Origin: Aquila chrysaetos chrysaetos
Taxonomy: Eukaryota; Chordata; Aves; Accipitriformes; Accipitridae
DNA length: 64,000 bases
NCBI RefSeq assembly: GCF_900496995.4
Contig: NC_044018.1
Span: 28,116,858-28,180,857 of the forward strand
Direction of reading: 5' to 3'
The notes below the pieces were generated by a model. It ran no database searches. It was not told the DNA's origin and saw only the letters and a program-made list of their open reading frames with translations. Positions 19,930 through 64,000 of the stretch are shown here, piece after piece. The position numbers and the translations under genes are program-made. Within the stretch, counting starts at the first letter, position 1. Every line of letters starts with the position of its first letter.

Positions 19930-20790
19930 GCCCCCAAGCCAGATTGAAAAAGGAAAGAAGCAGCCCCTATCTTCTCCCGGCAGCAGCCCAACCTCCTTAA
20001 ATCCAGCTCCGGTGTCCTGCAATGAAATGAACTGTGTCCCTCATGGCCCACCACATACCAGCACATCTACCTGGCTCGGTCCCATCAGGGGAGTCTCGTG
20101 GCGATGCCACATCCCGTTAGCAGCCCTGGCAAGCTGCTCGTTAGCCCCAAGCCCAGTGATGAAATAAGCGTCTGAGCAAAGAAAAGTCTCACATGTGGAT
20201 ACCCAGCACGGAGAGCTGATTTACAGGAGGGAACCGCTCTGCCTTTCTTGCTGTGTTGTACATTTCTGGCTGCCTCGTGGCAAATGTGTATAAAACTCCT
20301 CTTTCTTCCTCTGTCCTCATGTCCCTTCCTCGATGGCCGTATCCCTGGGGTGCTTCTGCATGCAGTACATCCCGCTGCTTCCATTCACTAGCCTTTGGGG
20401 TGAGGGTAGGTGTGGGGCAAGCGGGACTCGTCCCGTGGCAGAGCTGGGGAGGGAGCATCTTCTCGGCATGTGGCCAGAGGGATTAACTGCCCCAGGTTGG
20501 AGCACCTGGGCAGCTTTGCTCACCTGGTAGCCCCAGGTGTGCCATAAGCAGGAGCTCTCTCTGGAGCCATGGCTTCCAGTTCCGCTTGTCCTTGCTCTCC
20601 ATGGTACCTGATAAGACCTCACACACACGTGGACTTTTTCAAAGGAGAACAAAGCTTGCTCTTCAGTGCCTGGTCCCCTGTGACATGGAACGAGATGTAC
20701 TGTCCCCACCTCCCTTCCTCTTCTGTTTGTGGTATGCCCTACTTCCTTGGGATGTTGCCATTCTCAATAAATTGCAGAGAACTTTCATGA
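19930..20790 (+). other. 3' UTR of keratin gene 2
   Basis: It extends from the stop at 19927-19929 to just past the AATAAA at 20766. By eye it is identical to the gene 3 3' UTR and homologous to that of gene 4, including a conserved GTGTATAAAACT stretch near 20286 and the GAAATGAACTGT block near 20023. Confidence 0.65.
20766..20771 (+). terminator. Poly(A) signal of keratin gene 2
   Basis: AATAAA in the context TCTCAATAAATTGCAG, conserved in gene 3 (29755) and, as CCAATAAACTGCAG, in gene 4 (38570). A GT-rich stretch follows (GATGTCTTTGCGTC). Confidence 0.75.
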
Positions 20791-27900: not shown

Positions 27901-28918
27901 CAGCAGTTGCAGTCAGCTATTGCCGAGGCCGAGGAGCGGGGTGAGATGGCCCTCAAGGATGCTCGGTTAAAACTGGAAGAGCTGGAAAGTGCCCTGAGCA
28001 AAGACAAGGAGGAGCTGGCTCGCTTGCTGAAGGAGTACCAGGAGCTGCTGAACATCAAGATTGCGCTGGACGTTGAGATTGCCATGTACAGGAAACTGCT
28101 GGAGGGAGAGGAGAACAGGTACCTCTCTGTCTATCTATTTGACTAAATTCTTGACAGATTATACTATATGTGGGTAAAATCTTTGCATGCACTCTAAAGA
28201 TAAATTTCGTATCACTCATGCTCTAATTCTTAGCCTTAAGTATATATTCGACATTTCTTATAAGAATGTTAAGTTCAAGGTTGCTCATTTGTTTTAAAGA
28301 ATAGTTAGGAAATTCAGAAAGAATAGGGTGTATATAACTTGTAAAAAAAGGGAAATTCTCAGCTGAAGAAATGTGCACTTCCCTTGGGATAAACAGGTTG
28401 TGTTTTCTTTCACAGACTGTGCAATGATGGCATGTCCAACGTCAATGTCTGTAAGTATCTGCATTTGTTTCCTTGAGAAGTAATAGCAGACCATGTCTTT
28501 TTGGAGACACAGCCTGCCAGTGGACAGCCTGTATGTAACCTGTGCTTCTCTTCCAGCTGTGGTAGGCAGGACCAGCATCTCTGGAGGCAGAGGAGGCATG
28601 GGAGGAGGCTTCGGAGGCGGCAGCGGCATGGGAGGAGGCTTCGGAGGCGGCAGCGGCATGGGAGGAGGCTTCGGAGGCGGCAGCGGCATGGGCGGAGGAA
28701 TGGGAGGAGGCCTATGTGGAGTAGGAAGCAGCATTGGAGGTGGAAGCATGGGCGGCAGCTGTGGAATGGGAGGAGGAATGTACAGCGGTGGCTTCTCTTC
28801 TGGAAGTGGAAGGATGTGCGGCTCCGGAGGTGGCAGCTTCGGCTCTGGTGGGGGATCGTCCTCCATACGGAGATGTGTCACGACCACCTCCGTCAAATCT
28901 TCAGGAGTGAGATTCTGA
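24964..28918 (+). CDS. Type II keratin, gene 3 (K1/K2-like epidermal type), nine exons
   Basis: Exons: 24964-25593, 26372-26586, 26781-26841, 27009-27104, 27241-27405, 27540-27665, 27898-28118, 28416-28450 and 28557-28918. They total 1911 bp, or 636 aa, with no internal stop and GT-AG introns. I start at the MSRQS methionine, which is conserved in genes 2 and 4. The head shares [13 protein letters not shown] with gene 2 and has an expanded [10 protein letters not shown] array (about residues 85-155). Helix initiation is [11 protein letters not shown] and helix termination is [13 protein letters not shown]. The tail matches gene 2. Exons 2-7 are nearly identical to gene 4 while exons 8-9 are nearly identical to gene 2, so the gene is a mosaic. 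Its exon 7 donor is GTACCT, weaker than GTAAAC in gene 2 or GTGAGA in gene 4. Intron 4 is 40 bp shorter than in genes 2 and 4. Role: heterodimeric filament subunit with a type I partner. Confidence 0.93.
25218..25436 (+). repeat. Gly-Met tandem repeat in the head exon of gene 3
   Basis: A repeated GGAGGAATGGGTGG-type sequence encodes GGMGG units interspersed with GGFGG. The imperfect 15-bp period preserves the frame. Gene 2 has a related but different array (with GGMGSY), and gene 4 has only a short remnant with Ile in place of Met. This makes the head length variable between paralogues (210, 209 and 170 codons in exon 1 for genes 3, 2 and 4). Confidence 0.8.
26275..28118 (+). repeat. Near-identical block, gene 3 copy (exons 2-7)
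   Basis: This matches 35285-37174 of gene 4, starting at GATTTGGGAAATGATTCCG in intron 1 and stopping exactly at the end of exon 7. The offset is 9015 bp up to exon 4 and 9055-9056 bp after it, because gene 3 lacks 40 bp in intron 4. Introns are as conserved as exons, which points to recent copying rather than selection on protein. Confidence 0.88.
28598..28687 (+). repeat. 30-bp tandem repeat, three copies, in the tail exon of gene 3
   Basis: The same array as in gene 2 (19609-19698), encoding three [10 protein letters not shown]-type decapeptides. It keeps the frame and is absent from gene 4. Confidence 0.85.
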
Positions 28919-29779
28919 GCCCCCAAGCCAGATTGAAAAAGGAAAGAAGCAGCCCCTATCTTCTCCCGGCAGCAGCCCAACCTCCTTAAATCCAGCTCCG
29001 GTGTCCTGCAATGAAATGAACTGTGTCCCTCATGGCCCACCACATACCAGCACATCTACCTGGCTCGGTCCCATCAGGGGAGTCTCGTGGCGATGCCACA
29101 TCCCGTTAGCAGCCCTGGCAAGCTGCTCGTTAGCCCCAAGCCCAGTGATGAAATAAGCGTCTGAGCAAAGAAAAGTCTCACATGTGGATACCCAGCACGG
29201 AGAGCTGATTTACAGGAGGGAACCGCTCTGCCTTTCTTGCTGTGTTGTACATTTCTGGCTGCCTCGTGGCAAATGTGTATAAAACTCCTCTTTCTTCCTC
29301 TGTCCTCATGTCCCTTCCTCGATGGCCGTATCCCTGGGGTGCTTCTGCATGCAGTACATCCCGCTGCTTCCATTCACTAGCCTTTGGGGTGAGGGTAGGT
29401 GTGGGGCAAGCGGGACTCGTCCCGTGGCAGAGCTGGGGAGGGAGCATCTTCTCGGCATGTGGCCAGAGGGATTAACTGCCCCAGGTTGGAGCACCTGGGC
29501 AGCTTTGCTCACCTGGTAGCCCCAGGTGTGCCATAAGCAGGAGCTCTCTCTGGAGCCATGGCTTCCAGTTCCGCTTGTCCTTGCTCTCCATGGTACCTGA
29601 TAAGACCTCACACACACGTGGACTTTTTCAAAGGAGAACAAAGCTTGCTCTTCAGTGCCTGGTCCCCTGTGACATGGAACGAGATGTACTGTCCCCACCT
29701 CCCTTCCTCTTCTGTTTGTGGTATGCCCTACTTCCTTGGGATGTTGCCATTCTCAATAAATTGCAGAGAACTTTCATGA
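28919..29779 (+). other. 3' UTR of keratin gene 3
   Basis: Identical by eye to the gene 2 3' UTR. It ends shortly after the AATAAA at 29755-29760. Transcripts of genes 2 and 3 could not be told apart by this region. Confidence 0.65.
29755..29760 (+). terminator. Poly(A) signal of keratin gene 3
   Basis: AATAAA in TCTCAATAAATTGCAG, the duplicate of the gene 2 signal. Confidence 0.75.
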
Positions 29780-32154
29780 TGTCTTTGCGTCATTGCTTTG
29801 GAAGCCACTTCTAGGCAAGGTGGTTTCTGCTGTTGGGGAAGCAACTTGGTGGGAAGGTGTGGGTTGTTCTTCTGTTCAACGTGTCGTGACTGTGCTTTGA
29901 GGGAGCTGAATGGGTGTGTGAATGGAGCTAGGCAAGTGTCCAAGCATGGGTGATGCCTCTTGACTCGTATCAGTCATTGCAGTGCCTGAAAACACGAGCC
30001 ATACCTAGAATGGTGGGGTCCTGGACGCTCAGTTCACACAATGTGCAGTAAATGTGAGCAGGCAGGAGCACTGGGAGCCCAAGATGGAGGAATTCAGGAG
30101 GCCACTAAATTTTTGGGCAGGTCCTGATATAGCCCCATCCTTGGAACCATGTATAGTCGTTTCCATAGGTGATGGCTTCATTTGTTGTGTCTGGAAACCT
30201 CTAGCGCAGAGGGGTCCAGAACCTTCTGAATCAATGAGGAGGCTACAGGCTAACCTGTGCCAATATTTAGGAGTCAGCCTTTATGCAAACTGAGGCACTC
30301 AGTGCCCTGTTGCTCGTGCCACATCTTACTGGAGTGCTCTGGTGACATACGAATTGCTGCTGCTCTAGGAAGGGGGTTTTATCAATCTCTCTCTTGGATT
30401 TCAATTTTTTAGAGCAGGAGGAACCTGTGTGCAGGGTATGCTGAATCACAAACAAAAAGTTCTGGGATTTATGCAGGAACGCTGACAGTGCATAGTGTCG
30501 AAACCAGTAGAGACCCAAACACGTTGATTGATGATGGAAATCGGCAGCAGCAGGGTGGGAGCAGACATCAGATCAGTCTGCTGTTGTCAGTTCATCTGAG
30601 TTTCCTGCCTTGGAGTGGACTTTGGTTTGTGGTAGGGGCAGGTGGCAATGGTAGGAGTCTTGTGGGCAGTGGTGGGAGGGCGGGTTTCCAGCTGCCTGGA
30701 AGCATGGATATGGATGTTGGCCAAGCACCTACCCCCTGGTGTAGAAGTAGGATGTGGCCAGGCAGGCTGCACAGCTCGGCACCCTACGAGCACCAGGAGT
30801 GCTTGAGAACCACTAACTCATCCTCCCCTTCATTCACCAGAAGCGGGAACATAAAGGCCTGGGAAGGCGTGATTCGTCCCAAACCCATGGGCTCAGGTAC
30901 CCATCAGCTCCCTGAAAAGTCGATTAATTGCCCCAGTGTCTCTTCTTTACGTGGAGAGCGAGAGGGAGAGATTTGGTCTAGCTCAAGGAGGGGGGACTGG
31001 GAGAAGAATGCAGGTGTGTTTGATCTGTGCCGTGCTTCAGTTCCTCCACCACAAGAAGAGATCAAAGAGACAGAAACCACTTTCAGTAGTGGTTCAGGAG
31101 TCCCACAACAACCTGCTGTGAGCTGCCAGTGTCCCTGTAGCAGGTCAGGAAGCTGCAGACCTAGGAATAGGTCCAGGCAAGGCAGTGGGGAATGGTTACA
31201 GGGCTCCTGGAAGAGGGACGTTGACTTGCTTTAGAGCCCAGCAGAAGTGTGTTAGAGCTGGGGAATGTGACTGGGTTTGGCCCAAACAGAAGACGATGAG
31301 AAGGCAATGCCTCTGAGATGCTGGGGCTGTGCCAAGAGCACTTTCGGGTTTGGCTTGGGGCAAGAGTCACCTGTTTTCATTCTTAATTTTAAGACTGTGT
31401 TTCTTCTCAGCTTTAAAATCTGAAACACGGCTTTGTAGGCATTGTTGTGAGGAGTCATTGCAACATTCTCCTCTATGCTGCCAGAATCTCTTTGCTGTGT
31501 GAGATCCGAAGCTGCAGCCTGGCTTGGTCTCCATCTACATTTTCTGCCGAGTTTACATTTTGCCTGGTGTTGATGATTTTGCTGTGCACAGCTCCTTGCG
31601 TAAGAGATCTGAAGGAACAGCCGGCTGGAGCCTAGGCTGTCTATCGAGTTTTACCTGGAGGAGGCTGAAGAGACTCCAGGTTTGGTATAATCTTCACATC
31701 TTGTCTGAAGACGTCAGGGTGACTCAATCTGGGCGTCTTATCTGTATGTGCTGAATGTGGTCAGCATCCAGGCATTTGGCTGACTTAACAGATCTTCTCC
31801 CTTGTCGTGGAGCCGCCACGTGGGATGTTACAACCAAGTCATGCTGCTTACTGAGAAAGGCAGCTACCATGCGTTTGGCAATCTGGAGAGAGGCCATGGG
31901 AAGAGATGACCTGTTTTCTCTAAGCAAAAATGGAGTTACCCTACATCTTCCCGGGACTGCTCACCATGAGCGAGTGCACTGGGCTGTAGAATGAAGTGGA
32001 GAACTTAACTCTCTGTCTTGGGGATGACAACTGAGGAATAAGACCCTCTTCATTCAAGCTGCTTTTGAAAGGGGACGTGTCCCCTCCCTGCTGTAGGGAT
32101 GGCTGCTCATTCTCCAGCTGCAGCCTGTTGCATAGGGCAGGCCACACACATCTG

Positions 32155-32285
32155 GATTACCCTTGGCCAACCATGACTTGAGTCCCCCTCAAGGCTAGGA
32201 TAACTCTTGGCCAACCATGAATTGTGTCCTTCAAGGGCAGGATAACCCTTAGCCAACCATGACTTGAGTCCCCCTCAAGGTTAAT
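32155..32285 (+). repeat. ~50-bp minisatellite, about three copies, downstream of gene 3
   Basis: Units contain (T)GGCCAACCATGACTTG followed by AGTCCCCCTCAAGG or variants. The equivalent place downstream of gene 2 (about 23180-23217) has only one unit. The array has therefore expanded, or contracted, since the two copies separated. Confidence 0.75.
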
Positions 32286-34006: not shown

Positions 34007-37000
34007 ATGTCTCGGCAGTCAATCTGTAGAAGCTTTGGAGGCGGAAGCAAAAGGGGATACAGCTCTTGTTCTGCCATCGGTGGTGGCTTTGGAGGAAGTG
34101 GGGGCAGAACCAGGATCAGCTATAGCTCGTTCTCCACATCCAGGGGAATTGGAGGCAGCGGACGTTGTGGAGGTTTTAGCAGCAGGAGCCTCCATAACAT
34201 GGGTGGCAGCGGAAGAATTTCCATGGGTGGCTCTTATGGCGGTGGATACGGATGTAGAATTGGTGGCTTTGGTGGAGGCTATGGAGGAGGATTTGGCAGC
34301 ATTGGAGGAGGTGTCATTGGTGGAGGAATAGGCAGCTTTGGTGGTCCTGTGAGAGGTGGTCCTGGGTTCCCTGGAGGCATCCAACCGGTCCAGGTTGACC
34401 CAACCCTCCTGCGGCCGGTCCATGTTGATATTGATCCTCAGATCCAACAAGTGAAGTGCCAGGAGAAGGAACAGATCAAGACTCTTAACAATCAGTTTGC
34501 CTCTTTCATTGACAAGGTGAGAGGCTGGAACTGTATTTGCTTGGGAATGGGGACCCTGAGGAACTTTTCTGTGCTGTGGAGAGGGAAATATTGTCCTTCT
34601 TAGCTCAGTGTTGCCAGGTCTGGAAGGCTGGTAGTGTTTCCATGGAGTCTCCTAAGGAAATGTAAAAATTTTATATCTGCAGAGAAACCAAAGGACTTTC
34701 TCTAGGTTTAGTTGATCCAAATTATTCCTTAGGTTTTCTCTCTAGTGTTCTCTGTGCAGTCAGGCCAAACTGATCATAATATAGTCGGTTATCTTAAGCG
34801 GTTCTTTAAGTCTGTCCTTTTTCAAGGATAGTTTCTTCTCAAGGAACTTAGACTGTAGGAATGAGCTTTCAATTAATTCCTGAATGTTCCTTATTTCAGA
34901 TCAAGTACAGATGAGTATTCTTTAGACTGTCTGCACTGGGAGAACATTGGTTATAAATGTGCTTCATAGGTTTTTAAATATATGGCATATATGCCATAAA
35001 TATATGGCAGATACTTATTGTATCTGATAAGCAGAATGTTCTCCAATACTGAGACATATGGGATTTCATTCACTGGAAGGTAAAAAATTATCTGATGCTT
35101 CTGCAAATGAATGTGGGTCAAAATTTGCAATTGGAAATGTCAATATACTGTAAATCTGGAGTGTAATCCAATAGATAATAAATGTAGGAGGAGAAGTTCA
35201 AGGATAATTGAAAAAAGAGGAGAAAGAAGGGATGAATCCCCCTCTTGGAAAATTGGCTTTCAACTAGCCACAGTCCTGTTGGAGATTTGGGAAATGATTC
35301 CGTTGGCCTCCCAAATAAGCAGGAGGTTTGAGTAGTGTGATGTCTCCCTGGGTGAGTATCTCACACACCCCTTTGTGGGCTTTCAGGTCCGCTTCCTGGA
35401 GCAACAGAACAAGGTCCTGTCCACCAAGTGGGAGCTCCTCCAACAGCAAGGGCCTTCAGGGCCAAGGAAGAACCTCGATGTCATCTTTGAAAATTACATC
35501 CAGAACCTGAGGAGGAGGTTGGAGTCTCTCCTGGGGCAGAGGGGACAGCTGGAGTCGGAGCTGCAGAACATGCGGCAATACGTGGAGGAGTACAAAACCA
35601 AGTAAGTGCAGTGGCAGACTAAGGAAGAAATGAGCACCAAGACAGGAGAGCTAAGCCAGCTTGGAGATTCCCACACTGTCTTCCCTTTGCTGTGGAGCTC
35701 TGTAGAAATGGGGCCGAGGTTGCCATGGAGGGAAGGGGGGTTCCACTGGTTGACTGATGAACAGTCCAAGAGACTCGTCTTGTCCCCTTCAACAGGTACG
35801 AAGAAGAAATCAACAGGCGCACCGCTGCTGAGAACGAGTTTGTGGTGCTCAAGAAGGTGAGTCACAGAGGGACCAGGAGAGAGGGGGTTTGGGGGGACAG
35901 GCTGCAAAGACATTGGAAGGAGGCAGCACCAAGACGGGCAGCTTCCAACAGGAGGCACTGGCTGCCAACGGCTCTTCTGGGATGGGACAAAGCTGTTGTC
36001 TATCTGTGTGATCTTTCCTTTAGGATGTGGACTGTGCCTACATGACTAAAGTAGAGCTGGAAGCCAAGGTGGGAGCTCTGACTGATGAAATCAACTTCTT
36101 GAGGTGTATGTATGAGGAGGTAAGAGCTCCCCCTTCCTCTGGACTGCCTGGAGTTGCAATGAGGTGTGTGGTGGCCAAAGACACTGAGGTTGGACATGGA
36201 GGTCCCACGTGGATTTGGTCTGGAGAGGCTGCCTGGACTTGCTGCTCTTTTCTGCCCTTCTCAGATGGTCAGGCTAACTCATGTCTTGGTTGTAGGAACT
36301 GGCTCAGATGCAGACAATCAGCCGGGACCTGTCTGTGGTGGTGTCCATGGACAACAATCGGCACCTGGATCTGGACAGCATCATTGAGGAGGTCAGGCGT
36401 CAGTACGAGCAGATTGCTCAGAACAGCAGAGCTGAAGCTGAGGCTTGGTACCAGAGCCGGGTGAGTTGGGAAGCAGTCAAAGCACCTGGGACGGTCTCTG
36501 CTGCTTGATGTCTCCCTTGGCACAGAACAAGGGAACCGCCTGAGTTCTGGATAGGTTGTATCACTGATGGGTGGTTTTGTCTCCATGCCATCAGTATGAA
36601 GAGCTGCAGAACACTGCTGGAAGACATGGGGACAGCCTCCGCAACACCAAGATAGAGATCCAAGAGTTGACCAGGAATGTCCAGAGGTTGCGGGCTGAGA
36701 TTGAGAACGTGAAGAAGCAGGTAGGAGTTGTTCAGCATCTTGTTGGGTAATGGCATCAGGCTGGGTCATGACTGAGATGGGTGGTGTGCTAAGGATAGCA
36801 TGAGGGAAACGTAGTCATTGAAATTCAGGTCCTTTGGAGGAGATTGATGGTTCCTGCCTATTTTCCCTCCAGTCTGTGCCCTGAGGGCTGCTCCAGTGAC
36901 GGGGGGTTGTGCAGAAGGGAACTGAGAAAGTGCTTTTCTTTTTTCTTTCACAGAACCATCAGCTGCAGTCAGCTATTGCCGAGGCCGAGGAGCGGGGTGA

Positions 37001-37878
37001 GATGGCCCTCAAGGATGCTAGGAGGAAACTGGAAGAGCTGGAATGTGCCCTGAGCAAAGACAAGGAGGAGCTGGCTCGCTTGCTGAAGGAGTACCAGGAG
37101 CTGCTGAACATCAAGATTGCGCTGGACGTTGAGATTGCCATGTACAGGAAACTGCTGGAGGGAGAGGAGAACAGGTGAGACCTGCTGTCAGGTTGGTCTG
37201 GCCAATGTAATGTCTCTCCTTGGGACAGACTGAGGTTTAATCATCTATCACAACCTATTTAATGTTGATATCTGATTTACTTTCATTTTTTCCCCAAGTT
37301 TTTAAGCCCAAAATAGAAATGAGGTGCCCACAGGGAATATTTCTCAGTGGTTTTGACTGATGTTAAATGAAACAGGAAATAAAAGGAGTTGTTAGGAAAT
37401 TTCATGGAGCTTAATTGCTTTCTATTATATTAGACTTACAACTTGTGTTCCTTTCCCTACACAGGCTCTGTGGAGACAACTTGTCCAACGTAAATGTCTG
37501 TAAGTATCTGTACATCATTTTCTCTGCAGAATGGCTTTTACCCTGGGTTTCGTGAGGATTCCCAGGCTGTCACTTGATGTACAGTGAGCCTGTCCTTCTC
37601 TTGCAGCTGTGGTAGGCAGAACCACCATTGCTGGAGGCAGAGCTGGTGGCTTTGGAGCCAGCAGTGGTATGGGAGGGGGAGTATGTGCGGTCGGAGGAGG
37701 AAGCATCATCGGAGGCAGCTGTGGAATGGGAGGAGGAATACTCAGCGGTGGCTTCTCTTCTGGAAGTGGAAGAATGTGCAGCTCTGGAGGTGGCAACTTC
37801 ATCTCAGGGGGTGGATCCTCCTCTGTGCGGAGATGTGTCACAACCACAACGGTTAAATCTTCAGGTGTAAAATACTGA
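34007..37878 (+). CDS. Type II keratin, gene 4 (K1/K2-like, short head and tail), nine exons
   Basis: Exons: 34007-34516, 35387-35601, 35796-35856, 36024-36119, 36296-36460, 36595-36720, 36954-37174, 37465-37499 and 37607-37878. They total 1701 bp, or 566 aa, with GT-AG introns and no stop. The head (~1-150) begins [13 protein letters not shown], has SLHNMGG, and lacks the GGMGG expansion of its neighbours. The helix initiation and termination motifs are intact ([11 protein letters not shown] and [13 protein letters not shown]). The tail is ~100 residues and lacks exactly the three decapeptide repeats of genes 2 and 3; it ends VKSSGVKY. Unusual cysteines occur just before coil 1A (VKCQEKE) and in coil 2 (LEECALS region, where genes 2 and 3 have Ser). 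Exons 2-7 are nearly identical to gene 3, but exons 1, 8 and 9 are its own. The product is a filament subunit pairing with a type I keratin. Confidence 0.93.
35285..37174 (+). repeat. Near-identical block, gene 4 copy (exons 2-7)
   Basis: The partner of 26275-28118. Sequence similarity drops sharply on the left in intron 1 and on the right immediately after the last base of exon 7, where gene 4 has GTGAGA and gene 3 GTACCT. Intron 4 resembles gene 2 rather than gene 3, so exchange has involved all three genes. Confidence 0.88.
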
Positions 37879-39026: not shown

Positions 39027-39505
39027 GGTGGTCTGAACAGGGCAGTTGTGGCAGATGGACTGGGGTGGTTTGAACATGGCCATTGGGATGTGGTGGTTTG
39101 AACGGGGTTGTTGGGATGTGGCGGTTGGGCTGGGGTGGTTTGAATATGGCCGTTGGGCTGTGGTGGTTTGAACATGGCCATTGGGATGCGACAGATGGAC
39201 TAGGATTGGTTTGAACATAGCTGTTGGGATGTGGCAGTTGGACTGGGGTGGTTTGAACATGGCTGTTGGGATGTGGTGGTTTGAACATGGCTGTTGGGAT
39301 GTGACAGATAGACTAGGATTGGTTTGAACATGGCTGTTGGGATGTGGCCATTTGATGGTGACAGTTTGAAAACAGCCATTGGTATGTGGCACTTGGATGG
39401 TGGCAGTTTGAATGTGGCCGTTGGGATGTGGCAGTTGGACTGGGGTAGTTTGACCACTGCTGTTGGGATGTGGCAGTTTGAACGCAGCCATTGGGATGCA
39501 GCAGC
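39027..39505 (+). repeat. Minisatellite of 28- and 42-bp units built on a 14-bp module
   Basis: About a dozen imperfect units of the form GGTTTGAACATGGC then TGTTGGGATGTGGT (28 bp), some extended by a third 14-bp piece such as AGTTGGACTGGGGT (42 bp). It lies ~0.45 kb after the gene 4 poly(A) signal. Long open frames on the minus strand across it are by-products of the repetition. Confidence 0.85.
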
Positions 39506-41259: not shown

Positions 41260-41481
41260 AACACTCTTCCTTCCACCAAGTATTGTTGAGGTGGAACAGA
41301 AAGGAGATCTCACCTCCAACAAAGCCAAAAGCGAACTGGATGAAGTCTACAGAGATCTCAGTGGAGCCAAAGAGGAGCTTGGCCAGGCACTGAAGGAATA
41401 TCAGGACTCATTGAGTGTGAAGATAGGCCTGGACATTGAGATTGCCATGTGCAGGAAGCTGCTGGAAGGAGACGAGAGCAG
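41260..41481 (+). pseudogene. Decayed type II keratin exon 7 (coil 2 end)
   Basis: Reading from 41285 gives VEVEQKGDL and later [15 protein letters not shown] and [17 protein letters not shown]. This aligns with the coil 2B end and helix termination motif of type II keratins ([15 protein letters not shown] in the neighbours). A CAG acceptor at 41257-41259 and a GT donor at 41482 bracket 222 bp, one base more than the invariant 221-bp exon 7. The extra base lies in the first 30 bp and breaks the frame. Tyr-to-Cys and other changes hit conserved positions. I found no exon 6 or exon 8 nearby, so I call it a relic of a lost keratin gene rather than a working exon. Confidence 0.8.
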
Positions 41482-43122: not shown

Positions 43123-44173
43123 ACATCCACTCTTAACTACAAGCATGGGTTGAAGCAAGTCGACATCTCCCGTTGCCTGGGGACCAGGGCTTGTTGGGCA
43201 GACCTGATGAAGATAGGGTAGACATAGCCACAAAATGCCACTAGAGGGCTTGTAGCCTGTGCAAGGGACACTGCCCCGTTCTCTCACACACCTCAACCTG
43301 CCGTTGTCCTCCAGGTCGATGACGAATTGACTTTCCCATAAATTATCGGTCAGGCTGAGATGGGAATTTCAGGTTGTGCAGAAAACCACTACCTAAAGGA
43401 AGGACCGGCTCCATTCTTAGTGCAGTCATCGGTCACAAGTGACAGCCTGATGAAAGACGAAAGGACAAGTGGTGTGTTGCATTTACCAATAACTGTGTTT
43501 GTGGCAGATCTGCCTGAGCTGCAGGTCCTCTGCCTTGCCTGATCTTTACAGGGTTTGATATGGGGCCAGAATCAACTGAAACAGGAACTGGTCCTTATCT
43601 CAGACTTGGACAGCCACTTCACGCTGGTCCTGGAGGTCCTCAGACCAGCCTCCCTTCCTCCTCCCCAACAAAACCACTCTCTGAAGTCCCTAGAAAAAGT
43701 TCTCTTATTTCTGTTGTGCCTCCACAGGTGTTTGAAATCTGCTGGAGTAAAGGCTGGGCCGGCAGCCAAGGAACCAAGCCCTTCAGCTGGCTTGCATTGC
43801 TTTCTTTTCTTGTAGACATGTAAAAAGGAAATACACTGATCCTCTGTTAGAAGGTCTGTTTTCGTACCACTGCCTTGTCCATTTGAAGTAAAGCAGCTGA
43901 ACAAGAGCAAGGGTAGCTCTGGTATTGTCATACCTGCCAGCAGCACAGCCTGCTTGAAACCTTTTGGGCTGAGAAAGAAATGGCTTCGGTGGCTTTGCAG
44001 TATGAGTCTCCCCACAAATGGTGGGCATAGAAGTGTTTCCTACAGGCTGGAAGGTCTCAGCTGGGAGGGAACTTTGCTGCTGAGTGGTCCTAAGGTGGTG
44101 TGGCAAATCTCTTTGGTGAAAACAGGTTATTTGTTGGAAAAAGATATGCTAGTTCCCCTCCATCCCATCTGCT

Positions 44174-44311
44174 AGCATCCAAGTCACCCTGAACCAAGGC
44201 TTCCTGGCACCTCTCAGTCTAGATGTTGACCCTGAGGTCCAGAATGTGCAAATGCTGGAGAAGGAGCAAATCAAGATCCCCAATGAAAACATTACCTCCT
44301 TTGTTGACAAG
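44174..44311 (+). pseudogene. Decayed type II keratin exon 1 (end of head and start of coil 1A)
   Basis: The frame ending at 44311 reads SIQVTLNQGFLAPLSL, then DVDPEVQNV, EKEQIKIPNENITSFVDK and a GT donor (GTAGGA). It matches the H1/coil 1A start of type II keratins ([25 protein letters not shown] and [11 protein letters not shown] in family members). The helix initiation motif is damaged: [11 protein letters not shown] has become PNENITSFVDK, with a helix-breaking proline. No Gly-rich head or start codon is recognisable upstream, and no exon 2 follows before gene 5. It lies downstream of the exon 7 relic, so the two cannot be parts of one collinear gene unless rearranged. Confidence 0.82.
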
Positions 44312-53648: not shown

Positions 53649-53655
53649 TATAAAG
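53649..53655 (+). promoter_or_regulatory. TATA box (TATAAAG) of keratin gene 5
   Basis: A canonical TATAAAG 126 bp before the ATG at 53775, predicting a ~95-nt 5' UTR. The spacing equals that of gene 1. Genes 2-4 have GATAAAAG instead. Confidence 0.75.
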
Positions 53656-53774: not shown

Positions 53775-56700
53775 ATGAGCCAACATTTCTACCGATTTGG
53801 GGATGGGAATTTCACTTCTTTTTCTGCTCACTGTGGCAGACTGGGTGGTGGGAGAAGTTCATCTACCGTAAGCTATTGTGAAGACAATAGAGGAGAAGAA
53901 AGGTACAGTGGTTATGGGTATGGGTATGGTTATGGCAGCAGGAGTCTCCACAACCTTGGTGGGTTTAGGGATGTTTCTACTGGTGGAGGCTATGGAGGAG
54001 AAGGAGGAGGATATGGGAGGTGCCTGGGATTTGGTGGTAGGAGACATCTTGATAGGGGCTTTGGTAGAAGAGGATATTTTGTGGGAGCTTTTCAAGGTGG
54101 TGAAGCAGGGCTTGGTAGCATGTGTGGCAGAAGTTCAGGCAGGGAGGTGCTTGGAGGAGGCTTTGGTAGAAGTGCCTTTGGTGAACAAGGGGCTGGACAG
54201 GGTTTTGGGCAGGCTGGTGTTGGCAGAGGCATCGAGGAAGTCCATGTCAACACCAACCTGCTGAGGCCAATACAAGTGCAAGTTGACCCCGAGTTCCAGA
54301 GAGTGCGGTCAGATGAGAAAGAGCAGATTAAGGCTCTCAACAACAAATTTGCATCATTCATCAATAAGGTGAGTCCCTGTTCTCTTTTTTACTTGTTATC
54401 TGGAAGGGGGAAATATAAGGAGTGCTGCTCTGCCTGTGTGAGGCATGGGGACACCTTTACATTGCATATTCTCCCCCTCCAAATCACAGCGTTGGCTAGA
54501 TTCCCTTGTGCTGGTGTGAAGTTTTTAATAGCTTGCTATAAACGCCGCTGCATGAATCACTTACATTTAGCCCTGGGATAAGTATCTCTGAGTCGCCTTT
54601 TGTGGCAGGACAATAACAAACTACTGGGATGTCACCAACACGTTAAGTGACTTCTCTTTTGAGGAGAAGGGTTTCTGCATGGCTAGTAATATTCTGGTGC
54701 CTGGGAATTGTTGATGCTAGCAGGAAAAATGGGTGATGGACTTGGACATCCTTGATGTGTTCTGTTTCTTTTTCTCAAGCAAGGCAAAATGTTGCATTTC
54801 TCTGAATTACAAAACAAATTGCTTCTTTGCTTGGAGGTCCTAGCCTCTTTCAGGTGGCCTGTGGCCCCCACATCTGTCTTCTTTACCTCTTTCTTGGTTT
54901 ACACTACAATACTCCCATCTCTGTCTGCCATCGTCTTCTCTTTCGTTTCTACTCACAGACACAGGAACAAAACAGCCACAAAAACACTTCCACCCACGCA
55001 GACCTGACATGTGCCTTTGAGTGGTGACATGTGTCTCTGCGTAGTGTGGAAGCTTGTATTATTTGTTACACGTGAAGACTTAATGGCTTCTTGTGTTACC
55101 CTACCAAAAAGGTGTTGGTTACACCCAGAAGTTTTAAGCCTGCTTAGTCCTGAAAAATGGGAGCACCTTTCCTTTAACTCTTTTTTTTTTTTTTTAAACT
55201 TTCTGGATGTCAGCTTCCAGGTTATAACCTGTTCAGTGTCCCAGCTGAAGAGATGCTATCCCTCTGGTTTCCAAAAATACCAGCTCTGCATGTTATAGGT
55301 TTTTCTGACCTTCTTCTCTAAGGCAAGGTATATGTGGGAAGAGAGTGGTCCCATGCGGTCTTCTGAGAGGGGGATAATTCTTCTCATGTATTTGGGTGTC
55401 TAACGTACTTCAGAAACAGCTGAAGTCTCCCTCCACCCCAATCATCTCCCTAAATATTGTGCATTTAAGAGATGAAAAGCCAGCAAAGATTTCAGTATCA
55501 GCTTTGAGAAGCAGTGGTAAAATCATGCCCTTCTTATGCAACACATTGGGAAAAAAGAGGTGTGTCCCCTGTTAGTCTAAGCTGTCTCCTGTGTTGGTAC
55601 CAGTGTTACTACAGTTGGTCCCACCTGGCAAAACCTTTAGATGTTACTGTGTTGGAAATATTAGTTAGGATTTGTTTTGCTATAGAGACTAATGCTGATG
55701 TCAGTGTTTCCCCCAGTGCTTTCCAGTGGCTGAGACACTCTTCTGCTTTGCCTTTCAGGTTCAATGTCTTGAGCGGCAGAACCAGGCTCTGCTGGCCAAA
55801 TGGGAACTTCTGCAGCAGCAAAGTGCCCGACCGGAGGAGAGCAGAAATATCACCTCTTTCTTCCAATCTTACATCAGCAACCTGCAAAGGCAGCTAGAAA
55901 TGCTCCAGAGCCAGAAGGAGCAGCTGGATCCAGAAGCTTATAATATGCTTCAGCTTGTTGAAGATTATAAAAAGAGGTGAGTAATCACAGGTCTGGGAAA
56001 AAGCATACTGGAATTTTCCAAGGCAATGCTAATCATGCCCTGGGATGGCATAGCTTAGCTTCACACCTTCAAGAGTTTTGTAGCCATTGTAGCACTACTC
56101 TGCAGTAGGTTCATTATGGGACTTGACTTTGACACTGGAAGACTAAAGCAGATTTGGTAGAACCCAGAACAGTAAGAGGAAAATCAAAGGCCCTGCAGAT
56201 CTATCCCACTCTTTTCTCCTCCTGTCCTCCTTCATGCCCTTCCTCCCCCAGGCAATGAGTAACCCAGGACTCCTTACCAGTGGGGTCAAGTTGAGAACAG
56301 TCGCTCCTGGTTTAGCTACACCCAAAATATATATGTCCACAGTTCTGAAACAGGGGAAGTTTAGTTCAGAAATACAAGGCTGTTAGAACTGATGTATATC
56401 AATCTATATTAGCCACATTTCATAGGCTAACTTAGCATACAGTTCTGCAGAGGGTTTGCAATTGCCTTTGCAGCTGCCAAAAATTGCAGTTAAATGAAAA
56501 CTTGATACATTCCCTTTCTGGATGATTCCCTTTGGTTCCTGGCCCACTTGACTGAAAAAGTAAGGCAGGCAATGAGCTACCTATTTCTTTTCTCTGCTGT
56601 AACAGATTCGAGGACGAGATCAACAAGCGTGCATCTAAAGAAGAGGAGTTTGTGGAGCTTAAAAAGGTGAAGTAATCCAAGACATTGAGCTAAATCACAG

Positions 56701-59700
56701 CCTCAGAAATAAAGCAATAACTGGATGGTGTTGAGGTTTTCAAAACCAGGGTCTTTGCTTAACTTCATCTCGCTCCCGTCTAACTGAAGTCATCGAAAAC
56801 CTGAGCTTTTTACTGCAAGACTGGAGAGAAATCATTTCCTCTAGAGACTGAATCAGTCCTTTGTAAGATGAGTATTTTAAAAGTGCCAGTCTTTTTCTCT
56901 ATTCACTCAGTCACAATCTGGGTGAGACATTGTTATTAGGGGTTAAATAATATCTATAGATGGCTTAGATAGGAGAAGAGAAAATTTAGACAACTTTTTA
57001 TTAGAAGAATTAATGAAGTCTATGTTTCTACATTTTGCATTTTCTCCAGGAACACATTTATTGCCACAGCTATTTTGCTTGTTTCTAAGCCATTCTTTTC
57101 TTCTAAGAGTTAGAAACTTTCCCTTTGTTCCAATTGCTTTTCAAATGAAAGCTGAGCTTCATGGGCCATTATTTGACTCCAGGAATGAAGGCTTTAAAGA
57201 AATGTACCAAGTCTTGCAAGAATTGCACTTCAGTGGAGAGTTTGCCAAGCATCAAAGCAATACAAATATGCCTATGGCTTTTTTTACAGGAACTGGATAG
57301 TGCCTACATGGGAAAAATGGAGATTGATGTTCGGGTGGAAATATTGAAGCAGGATCTTGAGTTCCTCAGATGCTTACATGAAGCTGTGAGTATGCTTCTC
57401 AGATGAAAAACTTATCCTCAGGTCTTGAAGGGCGTGTATCTTTCAGAGGTTTTCAGAAATTTCACCTGAACAGGACATTGCAGAGTGGTGTGGAGAGTGG
57501 ATCATCCTTGGCCTTTGATCTTATAAAGTCCTTTTTCATCTGTGAGTGAACAGGGGGTCTGGTGTGTCACGAAACCTGGAAGAGACACTTGAAAATTAAA
57601 ACTGGTGGTGGAACAATAGGAGCTGGGGGATGCAAGTAGGGAAGTTCCAGTGGGTAACTGGCCAGAGGGTGCCATTTCTTTCCTCGTAACACAACCTGGA
57701 CTGCTCACATGAACTGTTAAAATCCAATTTTTTTTTCCTTGCAGGAGCTGTCCCAGCTGCAAACAGTAGTTGGCAACACCAATGTCATTCTGTCCATGGA
57801 CAACCATAGAGAACTGAACATGGATGGCATCATTGAAGAAGTCAGGCAGGAGTATGAGACAATTGCTCAGAGAAGCAAAGCTGAAGTAGATGCCATGTAT
57901 CAGGGCAGGGTGAGTAAACATCGACAAGACGGGGAGGCAAGTCTGCTCAGTGGAAAAGAAACCAAAAATGTCTGTTCTCTTCTCTGCACATCAGTACCAG
58001 GACCTTCAGAACATGTGGGTAAATCAACGTGAGCAACTGAGGAACAGTTATCAGGAAATCCAGGAACTTATCAGGCAGATCCAAAGACTACAACAAGAAA
58101 TTGAAATTGCAAGGAGAAAGGTAAAGCTGATACTCTCCAACATGACTAAACTGTTTAAGTCACTTTTACATGGGGACTCAGTGCAGTGGAACGTAGCCTA
58201 TCCTTTGGAGGCAAACCTAGAAATGACGTTTTCTCTTCAAAATGAAGCAGATTTAGATTTTGGCTGTCTACATTGGGATTTAATTTGGGTTAATTTACCC
58301 AGTCTAATACATCATCCAAGTTCGGTCATTGAGGCAGATCTTTTAATTTCCAGGGACTGCCAGAAGGGTTTGAAAATCCCAGTCCCGTAGAAGGGAAATG
58401 GACATGTTCTGTTTTTGCCCTCTGCAGAATAACAGCCTCCAAGAAACCATTAAAGATGCTGAGCAGCGTGGGAGCTCTGCCATCACAGATGGCCAGCAAA
58501 AGCTTCAGGATTTGGAAAATGCCCTGCAGCAGGCCAAAGATGATCTCACTCGCCTTCTTCATGATTATCAGGAGCTCCTGAACGTGAAATTGGCCCTGGA
58601 TATTGAAATTGCCATGTATAGATCACTTCTTGAGGAGGAGGAGACCAGGTAGGTACAAACTATTCATCCTGGATAGAGGCAGCTGTGCAAAGCAGTGCGT
58701 CCCATTCTTCAACCTATCACTTAGATCTCCAGGATGAATTGCTGCCTGGAAGGAGTGACCTCTTTCATTGGCTTACTGATAGAGCCTAGCCTGACTTTTA
58801 CTTTTATGGGATGCATTATCTCAATGTCACTTTCCCTTCACAGGATACAGGAAGGCTCACCAGCCACAATCTGTAAGTATCTCAAGGCTTTGCTTTGGTT
58901 TTTTAAAAAAGCACTGTTACTGTTTTGTTGTCTGTGGTACTTAACACCTACCACCAGAACAACCTATCTTAGCTCCATTCTGAGTTCCCTAGGGAAATGA
59001 AGGAAATGGTAGTCCCTTGTGAGCGTGTGTGTGAATACATGTGTATATGCATTAATATGCCAACATTGAGCTACTGACCTTGGAACCTGTTGGCTAAGTT
59101 CAACCAAATCTGTAAGAAGTGGGAAACACCTCACTTATTCATAGGTCTATGTGGTGCATGTCAGAACTGAAGGAAAAGAAACTGAGTCCTAAAACTTGTG
59201 GAAATCGGGGGCCAGCTAACGGAGAGAGAAACCTGTTCACTTGGCCTTCTTAAAGGAAGTGCTGCACTAACTGTTAATGTATGGAGTAGACATGTAAGTT
59301 ATATTAAAGATAAGCTAATAAAGCCAGAAACATATGAGAAAATATTTCACAGGAAAATCTACTAATGAAGACCCTTGTTGCCTCTTTCCAAACATATGAC
59401 AAGGACCACTAGAGTACATACAATGATGCCCATACATAAGTATTATACCAGCTGTGCTTAAAATTTTTTGAGTAAAAAGAATAAGTTGGACATCCCTTCT
59501 ATTTCTTACAGGTGTCATTGACCACGGTGCCAGTGCTAGAGGAATATTTGGAGTACGATCTGGAAACTTGAAAAGCGAGAAGGTGGTGCGAGAAGGTGGA
59601 CATAGCTCTGGAGGATGGGGATCCAGCTCTGGCAGTGGCGGATGCAGCCCCCACAGTGGAGGGATGAGCTCTGGTGGGGGCAGCAGCTCTGGCCGGAGAG

Positions 59701-62700
59701 GGTCCATCTCGGGAGGTGGAGGAGGAGGAGGAGGAAGCTCAGGTCATGGAGGATTGAGCTCTGGCAGTGGCGGGTCCATCTGTGGAGGAGGAGGAGGAGG
59801 AAGCTCAGGCAGTGGAGGCTCCATGTCTGGAGGTGGCCAAAGCTCTGGAGGATGGGGATCCAGCTCTGGCAGTGGCAGATGCAGCCCCCACAGTGGAGGG
59901 ATGAGCTCTGGTGGGGGCAGCAGCTCTGGCCGGAGAGGGTCCATCTCGGGAGGTGGAGGAGGAGGAGGAGGAAGCTCAGGTCATGGAGGATTGAGCTCTG
60001 GCAGTGGCGGGTCCATCTGTGGAGGAGGAGGAGGAGGAAGCTCAGGCAGTGGAGGCTCCATGTCTGGAGGTGGCCACAGCTCTGGAGGATGGGGATCCAG
60101 CTCTGGCAGTGGTGGGTCCATTTCTGGTGGAGGAGGAGGAGGAAGCTCAGGCAGTGGAGGCTCCATGTCTGGAGGTGGCCACAGCTCTGGAGGATGGGGA
60201 TCCAGCTCTGGCAGTGGCAGATGCAGCCCCCACAGTGGAGGGATGAGCTCTGGTGGGGGCAGCAGCTCTGGCCGGAGAGGGTCCATCTCGGGAGGTGGAG
60301 GAGGAGGAGGAGGAAGCTCAGGTCATGGAGGATTGAGCTCTGGCAGTGGCGGGTCCATCTGTGGAGGAGGAGGAGGAGGAAGCTCAGGCAGTGGAGGCTC
60401 CCTGTCTGGAGGTGGCCACAGCTCTGGAGGATGGGGATCCAGCTCTGGCAGTGGCGGGTCCATTTCTGGTGGAGGAGGAGGAGGAGGAAGCTCAGGCAGT
60501 GGAGGCTCCATGTCTGGAGGTGGCCACAGCTCTGGAGGATGGGGATCCAGCTCTGGCAGTGGCGGATGCAGCCCCCACAGTGGAGGGATGAGCTCTGGTG
60601 GGGGCAGCAGCTCTGGCCGGAGAGGGTCCATCTCGGGAGGTGGAGGTGGAGGAGGAGGAAGCTCAGGTCATGGAGGATTGAGCTCTGGCAGTGGCGGGTC
60701 CATCTGTGGAGGAGGAGGAGGAGGAGGCTCAGGCAGTGGAGGCTCCATGTCTGGAGGTGGCCACAGCTCTGGAGGATGGGGATCCAGCTCTGGCAGTGGC
60801 AGATGCAGCCCCCACAGTGGAGGGATGAGCTCTGGTGGGGGCAGCAGCTCTGGCCGGAGAGGGTCCATCTCGGGAGGTGGAGGAGGAGGAGGAGGAGGAA
60901 GCTCAGGTCATGGAGGATTGAGCTCTGGCAGTGGCGGGTCCATTTCTGGTGGAGGAGGAGGAGGAAGCTCAGGCAGTGGAGGCTCCATGTCTGGAGGTGG
61001 CCACAGCTCTGGAGGATGGGGATCCAGCTCTGGCAGTGGCGGATGCAGCCCCCACAGTGGAGGGATGAGCTCTGGTGGGGGCAGCAGCTCTGGCCGGAGA
61101 GGGTCCATCTCGGGAGGTGGAGAAGGAGGAGGAGGAAGCTCAGGTCATGGAGGATTGAGCTCTGGCAGTGGCGGGTCCATCTGTGGAGGAGGAGGAGGAG
61201 GAAGCTCAGGCAGTGGAGGCTCCATGTCTGGAGGTGGCCACAGCTCTGGAGGATGGGGATCCAGCTCTGGCAGTGGTGGGTCCATTTCTGATGGAGGAGG
61301 AGGAGGAAGCTCAGGCAGTGGAGGCTCCATGTCTGGAGGTGGCCACAGCTCTGGAGGATGGGGATCCAGCTCTGGCAGTGGCGGATGCAGCCCCCACAGT
61401 GGAGGGATGAGCTCTGGTGGGGGCAGCAGCTCTGGCCGGAGAGGGTCCATCTCGGGAGGTGGAGGAGGAGGAGGAGGAAGCTCAGCTCATGGAGGATTGA
61501 GCTCTGGCAGTGGCGGGTCCATCTGTGGAGGAGGAGGAGGAGGAAGCTCAGGCAGTGGAGGCTCCATGTCTGGAGGTGGCCACAGCTCTGGAGGATGGGG
61601 ATCCAGCTCTGGCAGTGGCGGATGCAGCCCCCACAGTGGAGGGATGAGCTCTGGTGGGGGCAGCAGCTCTGGCCGGAGAGGGTCCATCTCGGGAGGTGGA
61701 GGAGGAGGAGGAGGAAGCTCAGGTCATGGAGGATTGAGCTCCGGCAGTGGCGGGTCCATCTGTGGAGGAGGAGGAGGAGGAAGCTCAGGCAGTGGAGGCT
61801 CCATGTCTGGAGGTGGCCACAGCTCTGGAGGATGGGGATCCAGCTCTGGCAGTGGTGGGTCCATTTCTGGTGGAGGAGGAGGAGGAAGCTCAGGCAGTGG
61901 AGGCTCCATGTCTGGAGGTGGCCACAGCTCTGGAGGATGGGGATCCAGCTCTGGCAGTGGCAGATGCAGCCCCCACAGTGGAGGGATGAGCTCTGGTGGG
62001 GGCAGCAGCTCTGGCCGGAGAGGGTCCATCTCGGGAGGTGGAGGAGGAGGAGGAGGAAGCTCAGGTCATGGAGGATTGAGCTCTGGCAGTGGCGGGTCCA
62101 TCTGTGGAGGAGGAGGAGGAGGAAGCTCAGGCAGTGGAGGCTCCATGTCTGGAGGTGGCCACAGCTCTGGAGGATGGGGATCCAGCTCTGGCAGTGGCGG
62201 ATGCAGCCCCCACAGTGGAGGGATGAGCTCTGGTGGGGGCAGCAGCTCTGGCCGGAGAGGGTCCATCTCGGGAGGTGGAGGAGGAGGAGGAGGAGGAAGC
62301 TCAGGTCATGGAGGATTGAGCTCTGGCAGTGGCGGGTCCATTTCTGGTGGAGGAGGAGGAGGAAGCTCAGGCAGTGGAGGCTCCATGTCTGGAGGTGGCC
62401 ACAGCTCTGGAGGATGGGGATCCAGCTCTGGCAGTGGCAGATGCAGCCCCCACAGTGGAGGGATGAGCTCTGGTGGGGGCAGCAGCACTGGCCGGAGAGG
62501 GTCCATCTCGGGAGGTGGAGGAGGAGGAGGAGGAAGCTCAGGTCATGGAGGATTGAGCTCCGGCAGTGGCGGGTCCATCTGTGGAGGAGGAGGAGGAGGA
62601 AGCTCAGGCAGTGGAGGCTCCATGTCTGGAGGTGGCCACAGCTCTGGAGGATGGGGATCCAGCTCTGGCAGTGGTGGGTCCATTTCTGGTGGAGGAGGAG

Positions 62701-64000
62701 GAGGAAGCTCAGGCAGTGGAGGCTCCATGTCTGGAGGTGGCCACAGCTCTGGAGGATGGGGATCCAGCTCTGGCAGTGGCAGATGCAGCCCCCACAGTGG
62801 AGGGATGAGCTCTGGTGGGGGCAGCAGCTCTGGCCGGAGAGGGTCCATCTCGGGAGGTGGAGGAGGAGGAGGAGGAAGCTCAGGTCATGGAGGATTGAGC
62901 TCTGGCAGTGGCGGGTCCATCTGTGGAGGAGGAGGAGGAAGCTCAGGCAGTGGAGGCTCCATGTCTGGAGGTGGCCACAGCTCTGGAGGATGGGGATCCA
63001 GCTCTGGCAGTGGCAGATGCAGCCCCCACAGTGGAGGGATGAGCTCTGGTGGGGGCAGCAGCTCTGGCCGGAGAGGGTCCATCTCGGGAGGTGGAGGAGG
63101 AGGAGGAGGAAGCTCAGGTCATGGAGGATTGAGCTCTGGCAGTGGCGGGTCCATCTGTGGAGGAGGAGGAGGAGGAAGCTCAGGCAGTGGAGGCTCCCTG
63201 TCTGGAGGTGGCCACAGCTCTGGAGGATGGGGATCCAGCTCTGGCAGTGGTGGGTCCATTTCTGGTGGAGGAGGAAGCTCAGGCAGTGGAGGCTCCATGT
63301 CTGGAGGTGGCCACAGCTCTGGAGGATGGGGATCCAGCTCTGGCAGTGGCGGATGCAGCCCCCACAGTGGAGGGATGAGCTCTGGTGGGGGCAGCAGCTC
63401 TGGCCGGAGAGGGTCCATCTCGGGAGGTGGAGGAGGAGGAGGAGGAAGCTCAGATCATGGAGGATTGAGCTATGGCAGTGGCGGGTCCATCTGTGGAGGA
63501 GGAAGCTCAGGCAGTGGAGGCTCCCTGTCTGGAGGTGGCCACAGCTCTGGAGGATGGGGATCCAGCTCTGGCAGTGGTGGGTCCATTTCTGGTGGAGGAG
63601 GAAGCTCAGGCAGTGGAGGCTCCATGTCTGGAGGTGGCCACAGCTCTGGAGGATGGGGATCCAGCTCTGGCAGTGGCGGATGCAGCCCCCACAGTGGAGG
63701 GATGAGCTCTGGTGGGGGCAGCAGCTCTGGCCGGAGAGGGTCCATCTCGGGAGGTGGAGGAGGAGGAGGCGGAAGCTCAGGTCATGGAGGATTGAGCTCT
63801 GGCAGTGGCGGGTCCATCTGTGGAGGAGGAGGAGGAAGCTCAGGCAGTGGAGGCTCCATGTCTGGAGGTGGCCACAGCTCTGGAGGATGGGGATCCAGCT
63901 CTGGCAGTGGCAGATGCAGCCCCCACAGTGGAGGGATGAGCTCTGGTGGGGGCAGCAGCTCTGGCCGGAGAGGGTCCATCTCGGGAGGTGGAGGAGGAGG
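53775..64000 (+). CDS. Type II keratin, gene 5, with a giant Gly/Ser-repeat tail; runs off the window
   Basis: Exons: 53775-54368, 55759-55976, 56606-56666, 57290-57385, 57745-57909, 57995-58120, 58428-58648, 58844-58872 and 59512->64000. The first eight give 1510 bp, and exon 9 is open for at least 4489 bp, so the visible product is about 2,000 residues without a stop. The head (~1-165) has [15 protein letters not shown] and Gly-rich blocks. Helix initiation reads [11 protein letters not shown], with Asn for the usual Asp. The rod ends [15 protein letters not shown], where family members have RKLLEGEE. Exon 8 is 29 bp instead of 35. The tail (from ~494) opens with [14 protein letters not shown] and then repeats [38 protein letters not shown] and [12 protein letters not shown] modules. 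The composition is loricrin-like. The product should still pair with a type I keratin. The rod and cluster position could fit a K78- or K77/K1-like lineage, but I cannot settle this. Confidence 0.9.
59593..64000 (+). repeat. Coding tandem array in the gene 5 tail exon (about 237- and 342-bp units)
   Basis: A marker (GGAGAGGGTCCAT) ends at 59707, 59944, 60286, 60631, 60868, 61108, 61450, 61687, 62029, 62266, 62506, 62848, 63082, 63418, 63745 and 63979. Spacings are 237, 342, 345, 237, 240, 342, 237, 342, 237, 240, 342, 234, 336, 327 and 234 bp, all divisible by three. Long units contain an extra ~105-bp module ([33 protein letters not shown]). The 240-bp units lack the SICGG segment. The order short, short-variant, long, short, long occurs twice in a row (60631-62029 and 62029-63418), giving a ~1.4-kb higher-order repeat. 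(GGA)n runs differ in number between units. Confidence 0.93.

Follow-up and report, generated by a model that had tools for sequence, protein, structure and literature searches.

The window analysed here, a stretch of 64,000 nucleotides of bird DNA (NC_044018.1 28116858-28180857), ends within a type II keratin gene whose last exon remains open up to the window edge. This raises the question of what kind of keratin the gene encodes, how long its tail really is, and what such a tail might do. Positions past 64000 were read from the same assembly and are given as window-equivalent positions; gene structure, rod, array, neighbours and composition were read directly from this DNA.

Gene model and rod of the giant-tail keratin

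On the plus strand, a splice model of nine exons with AG/GT borders was obtained from position 53775 to 64000, yielding 1,999 codons with 0 stops. The features are:

53649..53655, plus strand: TATAAAG promoter-like box, about 120 bp 5′ of the ATG, a consensus match only
53775..54368, plus strand: exon 1, coding for the Gly-rich head and the helix initiation motif (splice model; Keratin_2_head at 12-177)
55759..55976, plus strand: exon 2, rod (splice model)
56606..56666, plus strand: exon 3, rod (splice model)
57290..57385, plus strand: exon 4, rod (splice model)
57745..57909, plus strand: exon 5, rod (splice model)
57995..58120, plus strand: exon 6, rod (splice model)
58428..58648, plus strand: exon 7 with the helix termination motif (splice model)
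58844..58872, plus strand: exon 8, 29 bp (splice model; length compared with the cluster genes)
59512..64000, plus strand: exon 9, part within the window; stop at 68504 (Gly/Ser frame) or at 65151 (as assembled)
59604..64000, plus strand: tandem array built of X blocks (44 aa) and Y blocks (35 aa), part within the window; it ends at about 68.3 kb

Exons 1-8 are intact, as are their splice sites and the motifs at both ends of the helix, and the nine exons include rod exons of the lengths usual for type II keratins. The intermediate filament rod and the type II head, which together define a type II keratin, were both present (Pfam Filament PF00038, 2.4e-90, 303.8 bits; Keratin_2_head PF16208, 9.5e-21, 75 bits), and the best matches of the rod among solved structures were vimentin and fragments of K1 and K5. 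The nine-exon structure and complete rod described in a first-pass annotation were thus borne out by the splice model, the intact motifs and Pfam, as was its statement that exon 9 stays open for at least 4489 bp to the window edge, including the count of about 1,999 codons.

Position in the keratin cluster and relation to KRT78LT

The cluster begins with a gene that is taken to be KRT8-like from its sequence, followed by a type II gene at 6 kb, K78-like genes at 16, 25 and 34 kb, relic exons at 41-44 kb and the giant-tail gene. On the 3′ side of the latter lie a cysteine-rich gene at 75 kb (28 Cys), its clade mates at 86 and 105 kb, and then further type II genes. The labels K78-like and HBS-like were assigned in this analysis; the HBS-like genes at 86 and 105 kb have 11 Cys each in exon 1 alone. 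Models with exons 3-7 of 61, 96, 165, 126 and 221 bp were obtained for 13 of the 18 cluster genes, these lengths having been imposed in the search. Exon 8 is 29 bp long in the giant-tail gene and in the two modelled HBS-like genes (75 and 86 kb), and 35 bp in nine further genes of the cluster that gave a plausible model.

A rod tree of 17 genes, all from this genome, grouped the giant-tail gene with the three K78-like and the three HBS-like genes, with a support (UFBoot 91, SH-aLRT 96) below the 95/80 mark. Its rod branch was long, 0.91 versus a median of 0.15. The gene at 6 kb had been considered K78-like and was rejected as such, because the tree placed it outside the K78/HBS clade. HBS keratins combine a cysteine-rich head and a rod with a tail of ordinary size and have more than 20 Cys. 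It was also considered whether the giant-tail gene is itself an HBS keratin, which was rejected in view of only 4 Cys in exon 1, 2 Cys in the rod, and the giant tail. One or more exons are missing from the models of g85583, g105488, g165280, g172661 and g206007, all of which save g165280 entered the tree in incomplete form, and for g-9182, which has an overlong exon 1, only the last 31 codons of that exon were used. The tails of g-9182, g6214, g105488 and g141082 were left unused because the automatic search had taken exons 8-9 of the neighbouring gene; also unused were the doubtful tails of g85583 and g206007, and g165280 had no model.

Several further observations were made in the cluster. 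The 3′ ends of two adjacent K78-like genes lie in a 3.8-kb direct duplication (19414-23216 and 28403-32194, 98.9% identical), and the predicted tails of these two genes are identical. Further pairs of 98-99% identity are 26263-27212 with 35278-36227 and 27227-28120 with 36282-37176. Two neighbouring K78-like keratins have short Gly-rich tandem repeats in exon 1, which encodes the head (15538-16164 and 24964-25593); these repeats, with units of 15-66 bp, differ between the copies. An exon 7-like piece (41270-41479) and an exon 1-like piece (44153-44311) lie on the plus strand in the wrong order and are probably what remains of one or two type II keratin genes that were lost. A minisatellite at 39047-39478 has periods of about 42, 70 and 113 bp, with overlapping open frames on the minus strand, the longest of 322 aa.

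The arrangement of the locus resembles that of a known gene. KRT78LT ('K78 long tail', Ehrlich et al. 2020, PMC7086170) is characterized in the accessible part of that report as an archosaur-conserved keratin that flanks the cysteine-rich HBS genes and lies next to KRT78-like genes; in the American alligator it has a tail of >1,700 residues and 66 Cys, and premature stops are noted in the genome sequences of chicken and Chinese alligator. On the two sides that were compared, the present locus fits this description, with K78-like genes on one side and HBS-like genes on the other. Based on the position between K78-like and cysteine-rich genes and on the rod tree, the giant-tail gene is most likely the bird ortholog of KRT78LT, an assignment filed on position, clade and tail, with the alligator gene compared by its description. 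The tail exceeds the 1,700 residues of the alligator protein even as assembled (1,880 residues). Several features count against the assignment, namely two breaks of the reading frame, the lack of visible selection on the array, the long branch, the clade support below the mark, and a total of 36 Cys as assembled (versus 65 in the pieces of the Gly/Ser frame and an alligator KRT78LT figure of >50). The characterization as type II, K78-like and giant-tailed was supported, while the remark of the first-pass annotation that a Gly-rich tail is not known at this size has a counterexample in alligator KRT78LT, going by the available text of PMC7086170. In the titles and abstract starts that were searched, where subscription papers are mostly absent, no bird copy of this length was found.

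The tail array, its reading frame and its composition

The array spans 8.7 kb and consists of 76 blocks, 29 X blocks of 44 aa and 47 Y blocks of 35 aa. The order of X and Y is irregular, and X blocks are never adjacent to each other. The block length is a multiple of 3 in 74 of the 76 blocks, and each of the other two has one extra G; an array of 76 blocks of two types with this regularity is far beyond chance. The last X block is partial and is fused to a unique C-terminus (...GGYGSVFGSSSGGEGIYSGESCGAGIYSCGDGPRESSSEGGWSS), which leads to the stop at 68504 in the Gly/Ser frame; the C-terminal peptide GIYSGESCGAGIYSCGDGPR is expected only if this frame is kept. The stretch read from the assembly contains no N.

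An open frame of more than 1,500 codons might be regarded as strong evidence of coding. This argument was rejected, because 1,108 of 20,000 mononucleotide shuffles of the 237-bp unit were also open in the frame tested, and 3 of 6 frames of the consensus unit are open. The minus strand of the array (59536-63999) likewise has an open frame of 1,487 codons, which results from the repeat unit itself and warns against the use of ORF length as evidence. Better evidence of coding is the continuity of the array with exons 1-8 and with the unique C-terminal stretch behind it.

Past the window the frame breaks twice, each time by a change from GGG to GGGG before TCCATC (runs 64044-64047 and 65095-65098). 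As assembled, the chain is therefore 2,383 aa long and ends at 65151, and its last ~370 residues lie outside the Gly/Ser frame; about 1,500 of the 1,880 tail residues belong to the Gly/Ser tail. If both insertions are taken as errors, the block count gives ~3,500 codons and a tail of ~3,000 residues. The earlier estimate of about 2,000 or more residues thus stands, with 1,999 codons and no stop, but an unbroken Gly/Ser frame to the end is not present in the assembly.

Whether the two insertions are real is a question within the KRT78LT reading and not its opposite. If they are, this individual or species has a shortened tail with a distal part in decay, a possibility that is given somewhat less than an even chance. 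Errors of run length would be expected in longer runs first, yet the longer homopolymers of the array were constant at matched sites (G5 in 29 of 29, C5 in 29 of 29, G4 in 47 of 47), and a fourth G was found in 2 of 124 matched runs of three. The array blocks also show no purifying selection, and premature stops, which may have a similar meaning there, are on record for chicken and Chinese alligator (PMC7086170). On the other hand, the Gly/Ser frame is free of stops across all three pieces (2,009 codons including exons 1-8, then 295 and 1,117), the unique C-terminus included. For each shifted stretch the array contains a sister copy that is identical over ~300 bp save for that base, which fits a consensus error as well as a very recent mutation. 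The assignment to KRT78LT is the same whether the insertions are assembly errors, with a chain of ~3,500 aa, or truncating changes of recent date, with a chain of 2,383 aa.

The length of the array itself could also be a product of the assembly, by expansion or collapse of a tail that is truly shorter or longer. The blocks are near-identical, with an exact repeat of 577 bp among them, and consensus assembly of such arrays is error-prone. Nevertheless this explanation is considered unlikely: private variants occur in several blocks, X and Y blocks follow each other irregularly, the stretch has no N, and 1.23 Gb in 144 contigs, with a contig of 31 Mb here, suggest that long reads were used.

Purifying selection was looked for by comparing 26 of the 29 X blocks and 41 of the 47 Y blocks, and none was visible. 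The variant types between blocks were 13 missense, 3 synonymous and 0 nonsense (singletons 9, 0 and 0), while about 69:29:2 is expected without selection. For this comparison the longest Gly run was removed from each block, and linked variants (GGC/GGT, ATC/ATT, TGT/TCT) were counted separately. Omitted were one X and five Y blocks of unequal codon number, the two blocks with a shifted frame, and the final X block, which carries the unique end; since some of these (61026, 61263) hold more missense changes, their omission hides no signal of constraint. Rapid homogenisation of a tolerant tail and neutral decay would both give this variation. In rod exons 3-7 (222 codons, compared position by position without alignment), dN against the cluster paralogs was 0.36-0.67 and dS 1.25-3.07, i.e., saturated, in 10 of 12 comparisons; dS was not computable in 2 of 12, and g184508m was much more diverged than the others.

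The long rod branch, the array without visible selection and the openness of other frames of the repeat unit would all suit a relaxed relic, a dying gene in which the array is a minisatellite that merely looks coding. This was judged to be quite improbable, because neither exons 1-8 nor their splice sites nor the two helix-end motifs are damaged, because dN is lower than dS in the rod wherever dS could be computed, and because chicken KRT78LT protein was detected in beak, according to the available text of PMC12821399.

The composition of the tail was determined from residue 504 with the shifted blocks omitted. The resulting 2,918 residues comprise 48% Gly, 34% Ser, 3.5% His, 2.6% Arg and 1.6% Trp, with 59 Cys, 2 Lys and 1 Gln, and have a pI of 10.7. 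Most of the Arg falls in the X blocks. The 59 Cys make disulphides possible; the 2 Lys and the single Gln leave hardly any scope for transglutaminase cross-linking along the array. This bears on the earlier idea of a fusion between a filament rod and a loricrin-like cornified matrix, and on a stricter form of it considered here, in which the tail would be a loricrin-like protein cross-linked by transglutaminase. Of that idea only the Gly/Ser composition was retained, and neither the gene fusion nor the transglutaminase chemistry. When window positions 59500-60500 were compared with genome DNA, in a search that scores the best candidates and skips simple repeats, all 13 of the 13 matches listed lay inside the array. 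A fusion with an EDC loricrin gene was rejected on account of the lack of a listed match outside the array and the near absence of Lys and Gln, the residues needed for transglutaminase. In addition, a rod is present, the gene lies in the type II keratin cluster, and the locus fits the known place of KRT78LT, so that the loricrin explanation is regarded as highly improbable in spite of the abundant Gly and Ser.

Proposed function and comparison with known keratins

With good confidence, the gene is read as an avian KRT78LT with a repeat-expanded exon 9, the rod of which would enter filaments and the tail of which would bind filaments and matrix in a hard epithelium. Exon 9 of a K78-group keratin may have expanded by unequal exchange or slippage of a tandem repeat of two blocks. 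The rod would pair with a type I keratin, the presumed partner, and take its place in ordinary filaments. The tail would stand out from the filament as a basic (pI ~10.7), probably disordered Gly/Ser chain in which Cys, Arg, His and Trp recur at regular intervals, and could bind neighbouring filaments and the matrix via disulphides and weak side-chain contacts. The putative setting is a hard epithelium, for instance that of the beak, during its cornification.

The likeliest role of the protein is to cross-link or space filaments in hard epithelium, although both the mechanism and its expression in this species are inferred. This role is suggested by three lines of literature, each in the portion available: a review relates the hypothesis that filaments are cross-linked by the long repeat tails found in sauropsid keratins (PMC11816140), glycine loops are said to be compact and to provide elasticity (PMC8072682), and KRT78LT protein was strongly enriched in chicken embryonic beak versus egg tooth (3 and 4 samples, PMC12821399).

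It is tempting to speculate further that a working keratin of ~3,500 residues (~300 kDa), perhaps the longest known, is made, and that its minisatellite of 76 blocks, variable in length, sets filament spacing and the density of disulphide cross-links in beak or claw; this is put forward tentatively and is rather doubtful. If it were true, hardness could be tuned through array length from one individual or species to another. Two one-base sites decide whether a keratin of 3,500 residues exists. The giant-tail keratin is of a known kind and is notable mainly for its size. KRT78LT has hardly been studied, and the genome sequences of chicken and Chinese alligator show it with broken frames as far as the accessible literature goes; the bird assembly supplies the whole locus, the exact block anatomy and the expected full size.

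Several known proteins can be compared with the giant-tail keratin. Loricrin shares the Gly/Ser-rich low-complexity sequence, but has no rod and is an EDC gene, and the giant tail is almost without Lys and Gln. Mouse K78 (~1,068 aa) likewise carries an enlarged Gly-rich tail on a K78 rod, which is several-fold shorter. The tails of K1 and K10 also form Gly/Ser loops and are far shorter than the giant tail. A size polymorphism of the K10 tail has been published (Korge 1992, as far as that record goes). A wall-lizard keratin is presented by title as a 'potential keratin filament crosslinker' (Parry and Winter 2021); the likeness lies in the long repeat tails that a review ascribes to sauropsid keratins and that are proposed to cross-link filaments. 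Chicken and Chinese alligator KRT78LT have in-frame stops according to the available report, and here two +1 insertions were found instead. The closest counterpart is American alligator KRT78LT, which has a type II rod of what is probably the same K78 group, the same place beside HBS genes and a huge tail, and, in the accessible description, 66 Cys versus 65 here in the Gly/Ser frame pieces. It differs in tail length, which is >1,700 residues in the alligator and here ~3,000 if the frame holds, or 1,880 with 36 Cys as assembled.
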